Virus record (IMG/VR): IMGVR_UViG_3300036407_000003
Coordinates: 1 to 42,759 of that record
Reading direction: 5' to 3' (one strand)
DNA length: 42,759 nucleotides
DNA from: a virus
The notes under the pieces: generated by a model
The model's input: only the letters and a program-made list of their open reading frames with translations
Database searches by the model: none
What the model was told of the DNA's origin: nothing
Made by a program: the position numbers and the translations under genes
In this document: one piece after another, positions 30,429 through 38,422 of the stretch
How the letters are laid out: each line of letters opens with the position of its first letter
Position numbering within the stretch: the first letter of the stretch is position 1

Positions 30429-30865
30429 TCGACAGCGCCCTGGAAAAGCGCTTTAACGCGGGCCGCGACGTCATGGAGATAACGATGGACGAAACGGCCG
30501 AAACTCAGTTGGTCGCCGAACTGGCCTTGAGCAGCACCCTGATGCGCTTGGCGATCAATCTTGCGGCCGAGCTGGTCGTTCGCGACGGCGGCAATATGAG
30601 CCATCTGCGCGCCGTGCTCTCCAACGCCCTGCCAGGCGAGCGGCTTGGCCCGGAGATCCCCGGCATCATACCAGCCGCAGGGCAGGGATATGATGCGACG
30701 TCGGCCATCGATCTCGCCAATGACAAGGCAGCCAAGGGGATGCAGTTCATCGCCGAGCAGGCGGCGGCCGCCGTAGTAAAACAGGGCATTGCCCTGCGCC
30801 GGCAGTGACAATGCGCGGCCGCGTTCAAGATCAGCAGCGTCGAGGCGTGCAATCGAGGCGATCAT
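30425..30865 (-). CDS. early-operon hypothetical protein (146 aa)
   Basis: Starts and stops overlap both neighbours as ATGA (cro at 30862-30865; 75-aa gene at 30425-30428), which argues for a real gene. The N-terminal half, ALFYYGGRRLLGDELHPLGCLVIGEIDGRRRIISLPCGWYDAGDL, reads as a plausible small beta-rich domain. The C-terminal half is Gln/His-rich and looks like a shadow of the plus-strand frame described next. Codon use is good on both strands, so I cannot say which is real; operon logic favours this one. Confidence 0.5.
   Translation of the reverse strand: MIASIARLDAADLERGRALSLPAQGNALFYYGGRRLLGDELHPLGCLVIGEIDGRRRIISLPCGWYDAGDLRAKPLAWQGVGEHGAQMAHIAAVANDQLGRKIDRQAHQGAAQGQFGDQLSFGRFVHRYLHDVAARVKALFQGAVE
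30485..30808 (+). CDS. antisense ORF with strong ribosome binding site (107 aa)
   Basis: On the plus strand GGAG (30475-30478) lies six bases before the ATG at 30485. The frame codes for 107 residues of ordinary composition: MDETAETQLVAELALSSTLMRLAINLAAELVVRDGGNMSHLRAVLSNALPG..., then YDATSAIDLANDKAAKGMQFIAEQAAAAVVKQGIALRRQ. It lies entirely opposite the 146-aa minus-strand gene. The helical N-terminal half looks more protein-like than its mirror. Either one of the two is real or this is a true antiparallel overlap. No promoter is visible. Confidence 0.4.
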   Translation: MDETAETQLVAELALSSTLMRLAINLAAELVVRDGGNMSHLRAVLSNALPGERLGPEIPGIIPAAGQGYDATSAIDLANDKAAKGMQFIAEQAAAAVVKQGIALRRQ

Positions 30866-31071
30866 TGAGAGCCCCCAGCAGGCACGAAGAAATCCGGCCG
30901 AAGTTCATGGCGCGGCACGCCCGAAATCCGCTCTACGTCTGGGACGCGCTTGATTGGAACTTCGTCCCACTGCAGGACGGCGGCCGGGGTGATGCCGAGA
31001 CGGCGGGCCAGCTCGCTGGCACTGCCGACATTGGCGATGACTTTTTCCAGAGGCGAAGCATGTGCGTTCAT
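30862..31071 (-). CDS. Cro-like/YdaS-type repressor (69 aa)
   Basis: The start at 31071 gives 69 residues: MNAHASPLEKVIANVGSASELARRLGITPAAVLQWDEVPIKRVPDVERISGVPRHELRPDFF. The SASELARRLGITPAAVLQWDEVPIKR stretch is a classical Cro/YdaS helix-turn-helix. It is the first gene of the leftward early operon and divergent from CI, with a 75-bp operator region between. The leader is short (a few bases before the ATG), and a -10-like TATATC lies just upstream. It should repress ci transcription and favour lysis. Confidence 0.85.
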   Translation of the reverse strand: MNAHASPLEKVIANVGSASELARRLGITPAAVLQWDEVPIKRVPDVERISGVPRHELRPDFFVPAGGSQ

Positions 31072-31076
31072 GTCGC

Positions 31077-31110
31077 CGATATAAGCTAAACTGTAAAAAG
31101 AATGCAAGCC
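31077..31110 (-). promoter_or_regulatory. cro promoter, copy of the 32211 promoter
   Basis: On the minus strand GGCTTGCAT - 9 nt - AGTTTAGCTTATATCG (31110 down to 31077) contains a TTGCAT -35-like and a TATATC -10-like hexamer 18 bp apart. Exactly the same 9-bp and 16-bp blocks at the same spacing occur on the plus strand at 32211-32244. The identity across blocks and spacing suggests that one repressor and polymerase see both. Confidence 0.7.
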
Positions 31111-31141
31111 ACTCTTACATGGACGCAAGCCGATGCAAGGA
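31091..31141. promoter_or_regulatory. CI/Cro operator region
   Basis: ATGCAAGCC (31102-31110), ACGCAAGCC (31123-31131) and ATGCAAGGA (31133-31141) are near-copies, the first two 21 bp apart. TGTAA (31092-31096) and TTACA (31115-31119) form inverted half-sites flanking them. The cluster sits between the divergent cro and ci starts, as operators for these repressors would. Confidence 0.55.
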
Positions 31142-31146
31142 TATCA

Positions 31147-31857
31147 ATGCGCACCATGGAAAAGAGCGATCGCGCAGTACTGGTGGGGCGCGCTATCCGT
31201 CAGGCACGGAAGCAACGCGGCAAGGTTATGCGTGAGGTTGCCGAGTTTCTCGGCGTCAATGTTGCTGCTGAAGGCAATTGGGAAGGCGGGCAAAACCTGC
31301 CGTCGCATGACAACCTAGTCAGGACTGCAGAGTACCTTGGAATTGATGCCGTAGCTTTAGGGCGTGGGGACGTCGTGTTTGCTGATAGCAGCGACCAGGA
31401 TCCACCAAGCGATGCCGAATTTGTCACGCAAGGCGGACGTCCAAACCTTGGGCCAATGGACGTCGAGCTGATGGGCATCACTGTCGGCGGCGATGATGGT
31501 GACTTTTCGTTCAATGGCGAAGTCGCCGGCTTGGTGCGGCGGCCGCCCGGAATAGCTCATCTTAGAAACGTGTTCGCGCTGCATATTTTAAGCGACAGCA
31601 TGGTGCCGCGCTATGATCCCGGCGAACTGATCTATGTCGGCGGACGAGAGCCAGTGCCGGGTGACCATGTAGTGATCGAGATGTTTCCGCCAGAGGGCGC
31701 AAAGGTTGGGAAGTCGTTCGTCAAGAAACTGCTGCGCCGCACGGAAAAAGAAATCATTGTCAGCCAGTACAATCCTGCAAAGGAATTCAGCTATGACCGC
31801 TACGCGGTCAAGCGCGTCTGGCGCGTGATACCGACCCGTGAGTTGCTTGGATTTTAA
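31147..31857 (+). CDS. CI-type repressor, LexA/S24 family
   Basis: The start at 31147 has AGGA five bases upstream. The 236 residues have an N-terminal helix-turn-helix (about 10-65: VGRAIRQARKQRGKVMREVAEFLGVNVAAEGNWEGG) and a linker with the autocleavage site Ala-Gly at about 127-128 (EVAGLVRRPP). A C-terminal S24 peptidase has Ser151 in LSDSMVPRYDPGELI and Lys193 in KSFVKKLL. It keeps the prophage silent and is cleaved after RecA activation. It is the target expected for the antirepressor at 243-1010. The 3' end overlaps the zinc-ribbon gene by 50 bp. Confidence 0.93.
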   Translation: MRTMEKSDRAVLVGRAIRQARKQRGKVMREVAEFLGVNVAAEGNWEGGQNLPSHDNLVRTAEYLGIDAVALGRGDVVFADSSDQDPPSDAEFVTQGGRPNLGPMDVELMGITVGGDDGDFSFNGEVAGLVRRPPGIAHLRNVFALHILSDSMVPRYDPGELIYVGGREPVPGDHVVIEMFPPEGAKVGKSFVKKLLRRTEKEIIVSQYNPAKEFSYDRYAVKRVWRVIPTRELLGF

Positions 31858-32119
31858 TAGCTCGCCAGCGTTCTGCTCGTGCCTTTGCGCTTTCGTTTGC
31901 AAAGGCTGCTTGCACCGAAATGCTCTTGCCCGGCAACCCGTCTGCCCTGCAGTAGGAACACGAAAGCCGCTCTGATAGCCGCGTAAGCGGCGTGGAGCCA
32001 CCGACCCCGAAAGCGCTCAACTGCTGTGGCCTCAACCATCGCGTATGACCGCAGTCGGTGCATTCCACCTCGATAGAGATCGTGTCTCCAACTGTAGGTT
32101 CTATTGATGGAAGCGCCAT
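31808..32119 (-). CDS. small zinc-ribbon protein (103 aa)
   Basis: The 103 residues start MALPSIEPTVGDTISIEVECTDCGHTRWLRPQQL and have two CxxC pairs (ECTDCGH about 19-25; LSCSYCRADG about 52-61), a zinc-ribbon form. The C-terminal half is basic (AKARAERWRAIKIQATHGSVSRARRA). Proteins of this kind occur as orphans in rhizobial prophages and chromosomes. It converges with ci and overlaps its last 50 bp, so the two transcripts could interfere. Confidence 0.6.
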   Translation of the reverse strand: MALPSIEPTVGDTISIEVECTDCGHTRWLRPQQLSAFGVGGSTPLTRLSERLSCSYCRADGLPGKSISVQAAFANESAKARAERWRAIKIQATHGSVSRARRA

Positions 32120-32210
32120 TCCAGTCTCTCGATGTTCTCTTAACGTTCTATTGTTGATTCCTTTTCGCCGGGAGTCGAGTCAGTTTTATCAGCGCAGTTG
32201 ATATAAGTTC

Positions 32211-32244
32211 GGCTTGCATCAATTTTCTAGTTTAGCTTATATCG
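32211..32244 (+). promoter_or_regulatory. rightward promoter, duplicate of the cro promoter
   Basis: GGCTTGCAT (32211-32219), a 9-nt spacer and AGTTTAGCTTATATCG (32229-32244) repeat the cro promoter at identical spacing. A GATATAAG at 32200-32207 mirrors the CTTATATC at 32236-32243. The ATG of the next gene is 27 bp downstream with GGAGGG before it. I infer joint control of this operon and cro by CI. Confidence 0.65.
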
Positions 32245-32270
32245 CCTTCTAGTAATCACTGGAGGGCACA

Positions 32271-32687
32271 ATGCTCACTTCAAACCAACCATCGCAGCCA
32301 CGATTGCCGACCCGGCGCACCGGCGACGTTACCAAGAGAATTCACATCCTGGCTGCAGATCTCGTTGATCTCAATGCTGAAGGGGATGCGCGTCGTCAGC
32401 GCTTGCTCGAACTGGGCTGGCCTGCTGCATTCCTGGACACCTACGAAGCCGAGGCGCGCCAAGCCGCCAACCTCTTGTTTGTTCGCGACGTCAACGACGA
32501 TCGCTCTCTTTCCCCGCGACAGGCAGAAGATCGGATGGTCGAGATCATCGGCCAGATGTTTCCTTCCACACAATACTTGGTCGCCGAGCTGCAGGCGCGC
32601 GGCGTATCGGTTAGCGCCATCAACCTTCACCTTCGCAAGGCTAAGGCTCGGGCCGCTCTGTCTTTTATCCACCAAGGCGTGCACTGA
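32271..32687 (+). CDS. first gene of the co-regulated rightward operon, unknown (138 aa)
   Basis: GGAGGG lies four bases before the ATG. The 138 residues contain a basic N-terminal tail (TSNQPSQPRLPTRRTGDVTKR), a helical region with YEAEARQAANLLFVRDVNDDRSLSPRQAEDRMVEIIGQMF, and a C-terminal VAELQARGVSVSAINLHLRKAKARAAL. This last segment has the spacing of a short helix-turn-helix. I do not recognise a family. It is followed at once by a 24-codon membrane mini-gene and an HD hydrolase. Confidence 0.65.
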   Translation: MLTSNQPSQPRLPTRRTGDVTKRIHILAADLVDLNAEGDARRQRLLELGWPAAFLDTYEAEARQAANLLFVRDVNDDRSLSPRQAEDRMVEIIGQMFPSTQYLVAELQARGVSVSAINLHLRKAKARAALSFIHQGVH

Positions 32688-32762
32688 ATGAGCGTGGCAT
32701 TGGCATATCTGATTGGGTTCGCCTTCGTAGCCGCAGTCTATCTGGCAGCGGAGACGCTCTGA
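32688..32762 (+). CDS. 24-aa membrane mini-protein
   Basis: The ATG at 32688 opens MSVALAYLIGFAFVAAVYLA and then AETL, a single hydrophobic helix. It begins one base after the stop codon of the 138-aa gene (TGAATG). Its TGA overlaps the ATG of the HD gene (TGATG). The tight couplings on both sides and the clear TM character argue that it is translated. Too short for family recognition. Confidence 0.55.
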   Translation: MSVALAYLIGFAFVAAVYLAAETL

Positions 32763-33322
32763 TGCCTTTTTTCATGACGTTGGCAAGCGGCCGCGACTTC
32801 TATTTCTCTCGGCCAGCCCCGGAAATGGTGAGCTTGCGTGACATTGCTCATCATCTGTCACGGCTTAATCGCTGGCGCGAGAACATCGAATGGCCAAGCT
32901 ATTCCGTGGCTCAACACTCAATGCTTGTCGCACAGACGTGTCGCCTGCCGCAGTCTCGCCCCTACGCGCTGTTGCACGATGCTCCGGAAATGATCACGGG
33001 CGACAACATCACGCCGTGGAAAGGCTTTCTGCTCTCGCTTGGGACGGACCTGGTTGCCTATGAACATCGCGTTCTCAAAGAGGCGATCTATCCCGCCTTT
33101 GGGCTCCCTCCACCGACTCCTGAAATCAACGCCGATGTTCACAATGCCGATCAGGCGGCCCTCGCTACCGAGTTTCGCGACGTCGTGGCCGGCCGGGGCA
33201 GCTTCCAGCCCAAGGCGAAGCCGCTTTCGACTCGCATTAGGTTTATGACACAGCCGATGGTGGAAGAGAGATTCCGCCTAGCACTAGAGGGCGCCCTGCG
33301 CCCGTTCGGCAAGGTGGCCTAG
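32762..33322 (+). CDS. HD-domain phosphohydrolase (YfbR-like)
   Basis: The 186 residues carry the metal-binding quartet of HD hydrolases: His52 in SVAQHSMLVA, His72-Asp73 in ALLHDAPE, and Asp130 in VHNADQAALATEF. Length and motif order match the 5'-deoxynucleotidase (YfbR) type. It could hydrolyse nucleoside monophosphates, or another small phosphate such as a signalling nucleotide. It is coupled to the mini-gene upstream by TGATG. An unusual piece is the early, repressor-linked control. Confidence 0.85.
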   Translation: MPFFMTLASGRDFYFSRPAPEMVSLRDIAHHLSRLNRWRENIEWPSYSVAQHSMLVAQTCRLPQSRPYALLHDAPEMITGDNITPWKGFLLSLGTDLVAYEHRVLKEAIYPAFGLPPPTPEINADVHNADQAALATEFRDVVAGRGSFQPKAKPLSTRIRFMTQPMVEERFRLALEGALRPFGKVA

Positions 33323-33326
33323 AAGC

Positions 33327-33557
33327 ATGGCCGTCCGCCAAGCTCCTGTTACCGTCGAGCGCATCGAGCGCGCCATGGATGAAGTGGCGCTTGCCATCGA
33401 CATGGCCGGCGACAGGGGCGTTGTCTATCTGCCGATCTATGAGCGCTTAGAGCGCGAGCTGCAGGAATGTCGGGCTAAGCGAACCACGCTCTCATCGGTT
33501 AGGGCGCGTTTAGATAGGCTAGGTTCCAAGCAGGTAAACCTTGCATCCGGTTCGTGA
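33327..33557 (+). CDS. small helical protein (76 aa)
   Basis: The ATG at 33327 lies four bases after the stop of the HD gene. MAVRQAPVTVERIERAMDEVALAIDMAGDRGVVYLPIYERLERELQECRAKRTTLSSVRARLDRLG is mostly one amphipathic helix, then a short strand, then another helix. Fourth gene of the 32271 operon. No family recognised. Confidence 0.55.
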   Translation: MAVRQAPVTVERIERAMDEVALAIDMAGDRGVVYLPIYERLERELQECRAKRTTLSSVRARLDRLGSKQVNLASGS

Positions 33558-33677: not shown

Positions 33678-34079
33678 ATGTTCGAGATTGTGCAGGATGT
33701 GGTTAACTTCATTGGCCGTGAGCAGGTTTGGGGGCCTTATCTGCTCGGACTGGTGACCGCACCTGCGTTACAGTTCATTCGTTGGATCTGGGGTAAGTTG
33801 ACAGCTCCAAGTCCTTACGCGGGTCCAACGTTTTGGAGCTTAGGCCGCAAATACAAGATCTCGGCTGTTTGCCCTCAGTATCCTGATGACACTACCGGCA
33901 CGGGATGGCGTCAAGAACAGTATGGGCGCCCAGACCAATGGAGCAAGTTTTTCGAGGTCAAGTCACAGTTGGGCATTCGACATACAATCGTTCCCAAAGA
34001 TCCAATGCAGCGCATGTTCATCCAGATAAGCCGCAACGGCAAGGAACCCGAGAAGACTGTTCGGTTCGCGTGGTCATGA
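33678..34079 (+). CDS. hypothetical protein with N-terminal amphipathic/membrane segment (133 aa)
   Basis: The 133 residues begin MFEIVQDVVNFIGREQVWGPYLLGLVTAPALQFIRWIWGKLTAP, which includes a probable membrane-associated stretch (about 19-38). The rest is beta-rich: YKISAVCPQYPDDTTGTGWRQEQYGRPDQWSKFFEVKSQLGIRH. A 120-bp gap precedes it, with a possible weak promoter (TTGACC at 33616, TCATTT at 33639). It converges with integrase, overlapping by 6 bp. No family recognised. Confidence 0.55.
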   Translation: MFEIVQDVVNFIGREQVWGPYLLGLVTAPALQFIRWIWGKLTAPSPYAGPTFWSLGRKYKISAVCPQYPDDTTGTGWRQEQYGRPDQWSKFFEVKSQLGIRHTIVPKDPMQRMFIQISRNGKEPEKTVRFAWS

Positions 34080-35450
34080 AAGGCCTTTAAGAACCTCTGG
34101 CACAAACGGCAGGGCGACCTTGAGTAGCTCCTGCCTTCTCCACTCCAGAGAGCCACCAGTGCCATATTCCTCTCGATCAATCCGGTGCCCTAAAAGAATA
34201 CGCCGCAGATCGTCGCCGATGCCGGCTTCTTTCATCCGATCTTCCATTGAGTGCCGCAGTCCATAGAGGGTGTGGCGAGGCGTCGGAGCTAGCCCATTGT
34301 TTCGCAGATACTTATTGACCAGCTGCGACAGCGATTCCTCGCGCTCGCGATATCTAGGGAAACCGTTGGGGAAGCGGCGAAACACCTCAAGCGCAACCCC
34401 GACCAGTGGAACCACGCGGATCGAGGCCGCCGACTTGAGTTCGCGCGGATCGTCAGGATCGTCGCGCTCTTCAAAAGCTAGGTGGGGAACGGGTGCGCCA
34501 ATGCGGATCTGCTCGCTGGTGAGATTGCAAGTTTCACTCGGCCGAGCGCCCAGCTCGATCGTTGCTAGGACGATGGCGCGTGCCTCATCGTTGAGCCGAT
34601 CGAGGGCGCCGGGCTGCAAGATCTTGGTGCGGATCCAGTCGGTGGGGAAGGGAGGGCGCAGTTTCTTTTGCTTGGCTTTCTCGGTGAAGGACAAGCCGGC
34701 GAATGGATTGACCCGATCCATTTGACCAATGTGGGCAAAATACTCGCCATAGATCGTGCGCAGCGAACCCAATTCCCGATTGCCAGAAGAGGGCGTGTGT
34801 GTCGATCGACCCTCTTTAGGCGCGATCCGCTGCTGCCAATAGCGCCAAAACTTTAGCGCATGCTCGCGCGACAGCTTGTTCATGTCGACATCGCCGACCA
34901 CTTCGACGAACCGATCGACGGCTCGTTTTTTGACGTTGACCCACTTGCGCCGCTGTTGCGCGCTCTTGGTCCGCAGCTCGGCCGTGGCAATTTCGTCGAC
35001 ATAGATCTGATATACTGACGTTAACACCAGCGGCGGCGGCGCCTCGCCACCCAGTAGGGCGGATTGCTGCTCTACTGTTCTGCCGGCGTCGGCGATCGTC
35101 TCAGTACGGGCCAGCAGATCCTCGATCGGCAACTCGGCCACTTCTGCAGCTGGGCGATAGGTAAAGCCCATTGCTTCTGCGCGCCGCACAGCCGCCTCAT
35201 AAATCTTGCGGGCGCGCACCTGGTCATCGCCGGCGAGCATTGACCCCCAAAGCTGATTGTCGGCAGCTTCATATGCATCGCGGCGCGGCCGAGCCTCGCC
35301 GATATTCCTAGTTTCAAGGGAAACACGCACTAACGGGGCACGACCGTCAACGTCGCGAAGGGCCTTCGGCACCTTGCGGTGATAATACCAGATCCCCCGC
35401 TTTTGCTGCAGGAAGCGATCGGCGTCAGTACTATCTTTTCGGCCGCCCAA
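34074..35450 (-). CDS. int: tyrosine-type site-specific integrase
   Basis: The 458 residues contain an N-terminal arm-binding part (GIWYYHRKVPKALRDVDGRAP), a SAM-like core-binding domain (about 140-250) and the catalytic domain. Arg303 lies in GARPSETCNLTSEQ, Lys339 may be the active-site lysine, His393 and Arg399 lie in RHTLYGLRHSMED, His422 in LLGHRID, and Tyr429 in EEYGTG is the nucleophile. It integrates the phage at the host attachment site. Its start is next to repeated AGGTATCCCCG sites, possible arm sites. Confidence 0.95.
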   Translation of the reverse strand: MGGRKDSTDADRFLQQKRGIWYYHRKVPKALRDVDGRAPLVRVSLETRNIGEARPRRDAYEAADNQLWGSMLAGDDQVRARKIYEAAVRRAEAMGFTYRPAAEVAELPIEDLLARTETIADAGRTVEQQSALLGGEAPPPLVLTSVYQIYVDEIATAELRTKSAQQRRKWVNVKKRAVDRFVEVVGDVDMNKLSREHALKFWRYWQQRIAPKEGRSTHTPSSGNRELGSLRTIYGEYFAHIGQMDRVNPFAGLSFTEKAKQKKLRPPFPTDWIRTKILQPGALDRLNDEARAIVLATIELGARPSETCNLTSEQIRIGAPVPHLAFEERDDPDDPRELKSAASIRVVPLVGVALEVFRRFPNGFPRYREREESLSQLVNKYLRNNGLAPTPRHTLYGLRHSMEDRMKEAGIGDDLRRILLGHRIDREEYGTGGSLEWRRQELLKVALPFVPEVLKGLS

Positions 35451-38341: not shown

Positions 38342-38412
38342 GGGGCTACTCGTTGGGCACGGCATAGGGTCTGTAAAACCCAAATGTACCGGTTCGATTC
38401 CGGTTAGCTCCG
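38342..38412 (+). tRNA. tRNA-like gene, anticodon GUA (Tyr) with atypical D arm
   Basis: Acceptor arms GGGGCTA (38342-38348) and TAGCTCC (38405-38411) pair with one G-U. The T arm is perfect: ACCGG - TTCGATT - CCGGT (38388-38404). The anticodon arm is AGGGT - CTGTAAA - ACCCA (38366-38382), giving anticodon GUA after a U33 and before an A37. The D arm is short (CGT/ACG) and the variable loop is 5 nt, unlike bacterial tRNA-Tyr, which has a long arm. It lies opposite the flanking phage genes. The CCA end is not encoded. It may be a degenerate phage tRNA or an attachment-related remnant. Confidence 0.6.
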
Positions 38413-38422
38413 CGCAGCTTGA

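Follow-up and report, generated by a model that had tools for sequence, protein, structure and literature searches.

The viral record IMGVR_UViG_3300036407_000003 (42,759 nt, analysed whole and hereafter called the window; all positions are on its numbering) carries two copies of a two-block motif that very likely represent the two operator-promoters, OR/PR and OL/PL, in the immunity cassette of a temperate phage, with one repressor acting over both. The motif, GGCTTGCAT-N9-AGTTTAGCTTATATCG, stands before cro at 31077-31110 (minus strand) and again at 32211-32244 (plus strand), the copies being identical at 25 of 25 fixed bases and equally spaced, just where an earlier note on this DNA had placed them. 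A search of the whole 42,759-base record for a third copy, which that note had suggested as a check, returned none at ≤3 mismatches, with none expected from 100 shuffles. The two copies point outward and enclose cI (plus strand) and the minus-strand open reading frame zr, and the similarity reaches beyond the blocks, to an inverted pair of 44 nt with 80% complementarity. Between the copies the 9-nt spacer differs and both flanking blocks are identical, a pattern that speaks for constraint on the blocks and against their having been duplicated recently. The region is laid out as follows:

30862-31071, minus: cro-like gene, 69 aa, of the YdaS/P22 Cro type (Pfam YdaS 8.9e-14, P22_Cro 2e-10)
30882-32267: exchangeable immunity cassette (cro, OR, cI, zr, OL), delimited by alignments with loci L009, L010, L031 and L032
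31080-31096, minus: candidate OR site B, TTACAGTTTAGCTTATA, overlapping the -10 of PR
31103-31119, minus: candidate OR site A, TGTAAGAGTGGCTTGCA, overlapping the -35 of PR
31147-31857, plus: cI repressor, HTH and S24 domains, 236 aa, start codon at 31147 or 31156 (Pfam HTH_19 3.6e-6, Peptidase_S24 0.0034; PHROG transcriptional repressor 2.4e-15)
31808-32119, minus: zr, four-Cys zinc-ribbon-like protein, 103 aa, convergent with cI
32134-32148: LexA (SOS) box GTTCTCTTAACGTTC, where the zr transcription unit begins
32149-32178, minus: putative zr promoter, its -10-like element AATCAACAATA abutting the LexA box and its -35-like TCGAC at 32174-32178
32202-32218, plus: candidate OL site A, TATAAGTTCGGCTTGCA, overlapping the -35 of PL
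32225-32241, plus: candidate OL site B, TTCTAGTTTAGCTTATA, overlapping the -10 of PL

Operator and promoter anatomy

Each promoter carries more than one dyad site, namely two, 23 bp apart, with AAG-N5-CTT(G) (site A) at -35 and AAG-N5-CTT (site B) at -10, and the 23-bp distance from site A to site B recurs in every relative whose block can be read. Averaged over the relatives, all four sites match at 3.7-4.1 of the six outer pairs, compared with 1.6-1.8 by shuffle, a score partly inflated because the AAG/CTT core had been used to set the frame; the dyad of the window's own site B is imperfect (3 of 6). Rhizobial-type promoters have the form CTTG...TTATAT, which the PR and PL hexamers fit, and a scan for the E. 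coli sigma-70 consensus found no matches in the region, these hexamers included. The cro ATG lies 7 nt past a -10-like hexamer in the window (31071-31084) and 6-8 nt past it in all 30 of the loci listed, and the cro mRNA is therefore probably leaderless; several right-hand genes, that of the window among them, have a leader and a GGAG-type ribosome site. In some operator groups a candidate third site lies near the cI start. A third operator as a general feature of the phage genome was also considered and rejected, there being no match at ≤3 mismatches and only chance-level matches to site A alone.

Since the blocks coincide with -35 and -10, and CTTG and CTTA-type boxes are common to all promoters of the family, the twins might be a shared strong promoter type, read by RNA polymerase or a phage factor with no common repressor involved. 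We consider this improbable: no other promoter in the record has the blocks, which are moreover dyad-symmetric, and the relatives described below speak against it in two further ways.

Conservation of the pair among relatives

Relatives of CI were compared at 22 loci from viral contigs and 61 from bacterial genomes, mostly Rhizobiales. Downstream of cI, a second copy of the locus's own cro operator, accepted where it scored above the best of 30 shuffles for that locus, was found in 72 of the 74 loci with enough sequence; L049 and L076, with no detectable twin operator, are the only exceptions. In phage loci the twin lies ~1.0-1.07 kb past the cI start, in Mesorhizobium loci at 1.1-1.8 kb, so that the distance across which any DNA loop between OL and OR would form is not strictly fixed. 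Scoring windows must reach 1.8 kb in Mesorhizobium, narrower ones missing several twins.

The operator sequence varies by group (it is TTAAAGCTGTGCTTTTA in the Agrobacterium group and TTCAAGTGATGCTTGAA in L028), yet alters at both places together. Over 20 operator groups, scores of cro blocks paired with their own twins sum to 547, compared with 471.2 (sd 10.5) when pairs are permuted (P ≤ 1e-5), and the excess appears likewise with 15 groups, even if a locus's own block is not always its best match (L105, which ranks 13th of 20, is a clear exception, and L012 and L035 rank 4th). Half-sites that vary from one phage group to another, and do so jointly at the two places, are not what a shared promoter type lacking a common repressor would predict. 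The operator pair is kept across lineages with CI identities of 53-79%, and also in the 25% relative L030, whose operator, GGTAGGTA...CTTACC, has GGTA...TACC half-sites. The operator pair of this distant locus (L030:5870-5960 and L030:7045-7095) still sits at ~1.05 kb. DNA-level searches among isolated phages found no relatives of the window.

Exchange of the immunity cassette

The strongest evidence for a common repressor comes from natural exchange of the cassette. L009 and L010 align to the window solely over 30882-32267. Two further loci, L031 and L032, found through the first right-hand gene (138 aa; their relatives of it are 70-72% identical), share the window's backbone instead: their longest left blocks, at 81.5% and 77.5% DNA identity, end at 30563 and 30765, respectively, and similarity is back in both at 32259, just before that gene. 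From there L031 aligns, with gaps, up to the integrase (81.5% identical), and the L032 contig stops after the 138-aa gene. Across the intervening 30.6/30.8-32.26 kb neither has similarity to the window; both carry another HTH repressor, another cro and no zinc-ribbon gene, together with a palindrome, TAGCCN5GGCTA, at two places, one copy separating cro from cI and the other immediately upstream of the 138-aa gene, which in these loci stands behind a different operator.

L031:5202-5276 and L031:5921-5969, also in L032: different immunity cassette on the backbone of the window

Both operators travel with cI, from which we infer a shared repressor for the two promoters, one that very probably silences the operons behind both. 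The arrival of TAGCCN5GGCTA at both places along with a new repressor is the second observation that tells against a promoter type without a common repressor. The cassette recombines as a unit, with the twin at its right edge, and the second copy could accordingly be a recent trace of duplication or recombination, for example of cassette exchange, with no regulatory role of its own. This we judge highly improbable, given the diverged spacer between identical blocks and the retention of the pair across the CI identities given above, including L030, where the operators are quite different.

The right end of the cassette, at ~32267, falls four bases short of the first right-hand gene. The earlier note had gone beyond its claim that a second, divergent operon shares the operator of cro, which gains support from the co-variation over 20 groups, the joint cassette swap and the OL/OR annotation of phage 16-3 (see below), and had counted the genes at 32271-33557 as parts of the switch. 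That extension is not supported: these genes remain in place through the cassette swap, which marks them as targets, and they are very probably early genes regulated by the repressor.

The right-hand operon and its flank

The genes to the right of the candidate PL are these:

32271-32687, plus: first PL gene, 138 aa, mostly helical, with GGAGG just upstream
32688-32762, plus: 24-aa hydrophobic open reading frame MSVALAYLIGFAFVAAVYLAAETL, read from the sequence, its stop overlapping the next start codon
32762-33322, plus: 5'-deoxynucleotidase-like (YfbR/HD) protein (PHROG 318, 3.4e-36)
33327-33557, plus: 76-aa protein, the last of the operon genes named in the earlier note
34074-35450, minus: tyrosine integrase (PHROG integrase 1.6e-20), convergent with the PL operon

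The 138-aa protein had no match in Pfam, PHROG or NCBIfam, and its structural model is poor (pLDDT 65). Translations of the right operon in relatives include what look like other early genes, SSB and a DnaN-like protein. In L009 and L012 the integrase stands at the end of the operon and in the same direction, whereas that of the window faces the operon; on the left side of lambda, too, the integrase runs in the direction of the operon, and in this the window differs. A tRNA-Tyr gene (38342-38413) lies between the tail genes and the right-hand minus-strand genes.

The binding protein

Either CI or Cro might bind the twin sites, and divergence does not separate them: correlation with operator divergence is 0.53 for the N-terminal and 0.67 for the C-terminal domain of CI, 0.56 for Cro and 0.66 for zr. 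Mesorhizobium islands have retained both operators even though cro is missing from them, an observation in favour of CI as the principal binder. The HTH domain of CI has P22 C2 as its nearest match among phage repressors of solved structure (1adr, 7e-7; 2r1j, 3.4e-6). The P22 C2 operator has AAG...CTT half-sites with a central spacing of 4 bp; the half-sites of the window are alike, but their centre is 5 bp, and the C-terminal domains of the two repressors belong to different families.

An SOS-box gene between the operators

Between the operators, zr is present in nearly all CI relatives compared, and its 3' end overlaps that of cI by ~50 bp in all loci compared. Four cysteines (C20, C23, C54 and C57, two C-x2-C pairs) are invariant. 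A search based on zr returned 38 viral loci, every one of which had a convergent cI (38/38) and a perfect LexA box (38/38). Viewed from CI, the box, GTTCN7GTTC, stands upstream of zr at a fixed distance from OL and is perfect in 67 of 72 loci and matches at 7 of 8 positions in the other five; shuffles of the box region gave a perfect match in 0.3%. The same motif is that of Caulobacter LexA (PMC12700426). The elements of the putative zr promoter are conserved in sequence and spacing over 24 aligned loci. A conserved GTCGA upstream of OL had been considered as part of PL, but its spacing to the LexA box fits the zr promoter better.

The zr protein had no Pfam or PHROG match below 0.01, no NCBIfam match and no match at E 1e-3 in the isolated phages of INPHARED. 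Its AlphaFold model (pLDDT 80) gave weak zinc-ribbon matches (best Foldseek E 0.35; VIA Z ≤4.3, to the zinc ribbons of HypA and MCM), which suggest, weakly, a zinc ribbon and no finer reading. We infer from the box and from the linkage to cI that zr is under SOS control and acts on CI: the gene is kept, with its four cysteines, beside CI even in the cro-less Mesorhizobium islands, which makes CI its likely partner. On this basis we lean, if only slightly, towards zr being an SOS-induced antirepressor.

The main rival to antirepression, itself compatible with OL and OR as described, is that zr serves as an SOS-timed lytic helper, through RNA-polymerase binding or antitermination, or that its transcript acts against cI by way of the 3' overlap, with CI cleaving itself in the presence of RecA. 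We regard this as quite possible, though short of an even chance. Zinc-ribbon folds are frequent among RNA-polymerase partners, the zr/cI overlap is general, and neither Ser151 nor Lys193, the catalytic pair of CI, varies over 10 aligned C-terminal domains. Furthermore, for the UV- and recA-dependent tailocin rhizoviticin of Allorhizobium vitis, whose LexA-family repressor could not be deleted and possibly belongs to the same family as CI, RecA-driven autocleavage has been proposed (PMC10811719); by gene order, the tailocin locus had no match among the loci checked here. An invariant Gly-Gly stands where an Ala-Gly or Cys-Gly cleavage bond would be expected (~35 residues before the Ser, by sequence spacing) and may tell against self-cleavage, and a helper role for zr is harder to square with its retention, four cysteines included, alongside CI where cro is absent.

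The proposed switch would operate as follows. In the prophage, CI dimers very probably occupy the two dyad sites at each promoter, over -35 and -10, silencing cro and the long leftward lytic operon and, simultaneously, the rightward operon from 32271, and LexA would sit on the zr promoter. DNA damage would release LexA from the box at 32134-32148, zr would be made and CI inactivated, and PR and PL would start together, a sequence of events that we rate as marginally probable; during lytic growth, Cro would probably use the same sites. Every binding event in this scheme, and the action of zr, is proposed on the strength of what was observed, namely the sites, their dyad symmetry, pairing and exchange with cI, the box and its linkage.

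Comparison with known systems

The window has, judging by its layout, the paired operator of the lambda and 16-3 kind, and Rhizobium (Sinorhizobium) phage 16-3 (DQ500118) is the best characterised relative. Its C repressor is S24-related (36.6% identity over 57%, the S24 part), and its record places OR1/OR2 at PR and OL1/OL2 at PL, on either side of c, one of them overlapping the -10, as in the window. The operator sequences differ, however, as does the gene at the cro position (the small p069 in 16-3, a cro-like gene here), and 16-3 has neither the zinc-ribbon gene nor the LexA box that the window holds between repressor gene and OL; its OL is consequently closer to the start of c (~0.8 kb, compared with 1.05 kb in the window type). 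In lambda, multi-site OL and OR surround cI, the early operons diverge and the immunity region is swapped as a cassette, and the window likewise has paired multi-site operators, divergent operons and an exchangeable cassette. Its operators are ~1.1 kb apart, whereas those of lambda are ~2.4 kb apart, no N gene, which lambda has, was recognised in it, an SOS-box gene convergent with cI takes the place of rexAB, and its cro, unlike that of lambda, is probably leaderless.

LexA-controlled antirepressors are known from Gifsy prophages (GfoA and GftA), phage 186 (Tum) and N15 (AntC), the Gifsy genes lying outside, and distant from, the immunity region (PMC3121763). The zr product resembles these in being a small phage protein with a LexA box and a tie to the repressor, but unlike the Gifsy genes its gene lies inside the immunity region, convergent with cI, and it matches no curated family, antirepressors being a diverse group.

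Paired operators are thus already known, and what seems to be new is that they form a conserved unit with a zinc-ribbon gene that has a LexA box and runs towards cI; the open-access papers searched made no mention of a module of cI, zr and LexA box. The lambda-like arrangement also seems previously undescribed for this virus family. The finding yields a defined operator sequence along with a cassette swap that nature has already made, gives an otherwise unannotated early operon a candidate regulator and locates a LexA-box gene at the heart of a phage switch that is spread through Rhizobiales. Were zr an antirepressor, it would represent a new antirepressor family and would explain SOS induction despite the atypical Gly-Gly repressor.

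Islands in Mesorhizobium

Most of L038-L093, which are Mesorhizobium chromosomes or contigs, retain, within an island measuring a few kb, cI and zr along with the LexA box and the operator pair. Host genes (dinB, an ABC transporter, LysR) flank the island, and no phage structural genes were recognised around the loci inspected. To judge from this gene content, the island looks like a switch that has outlived its phage. We are evenly divided over a broader proposal, in which OR-cI and the convergent zr-OL form a widespread and previously undescribed module of Rhizobiales phages, with host LexA in direct control of a zinc-ribbon antirepressor that is nested between the operators, and in which Mesorhizobium keeps the module, phage-less, as an SOS switch for two small operons. 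In place of cro these islands have a small open reading frame at the same leaderless position, and further to the left they carry a GcrA-like gene (PF07750), DUF6456 and sometimes DUF1376.
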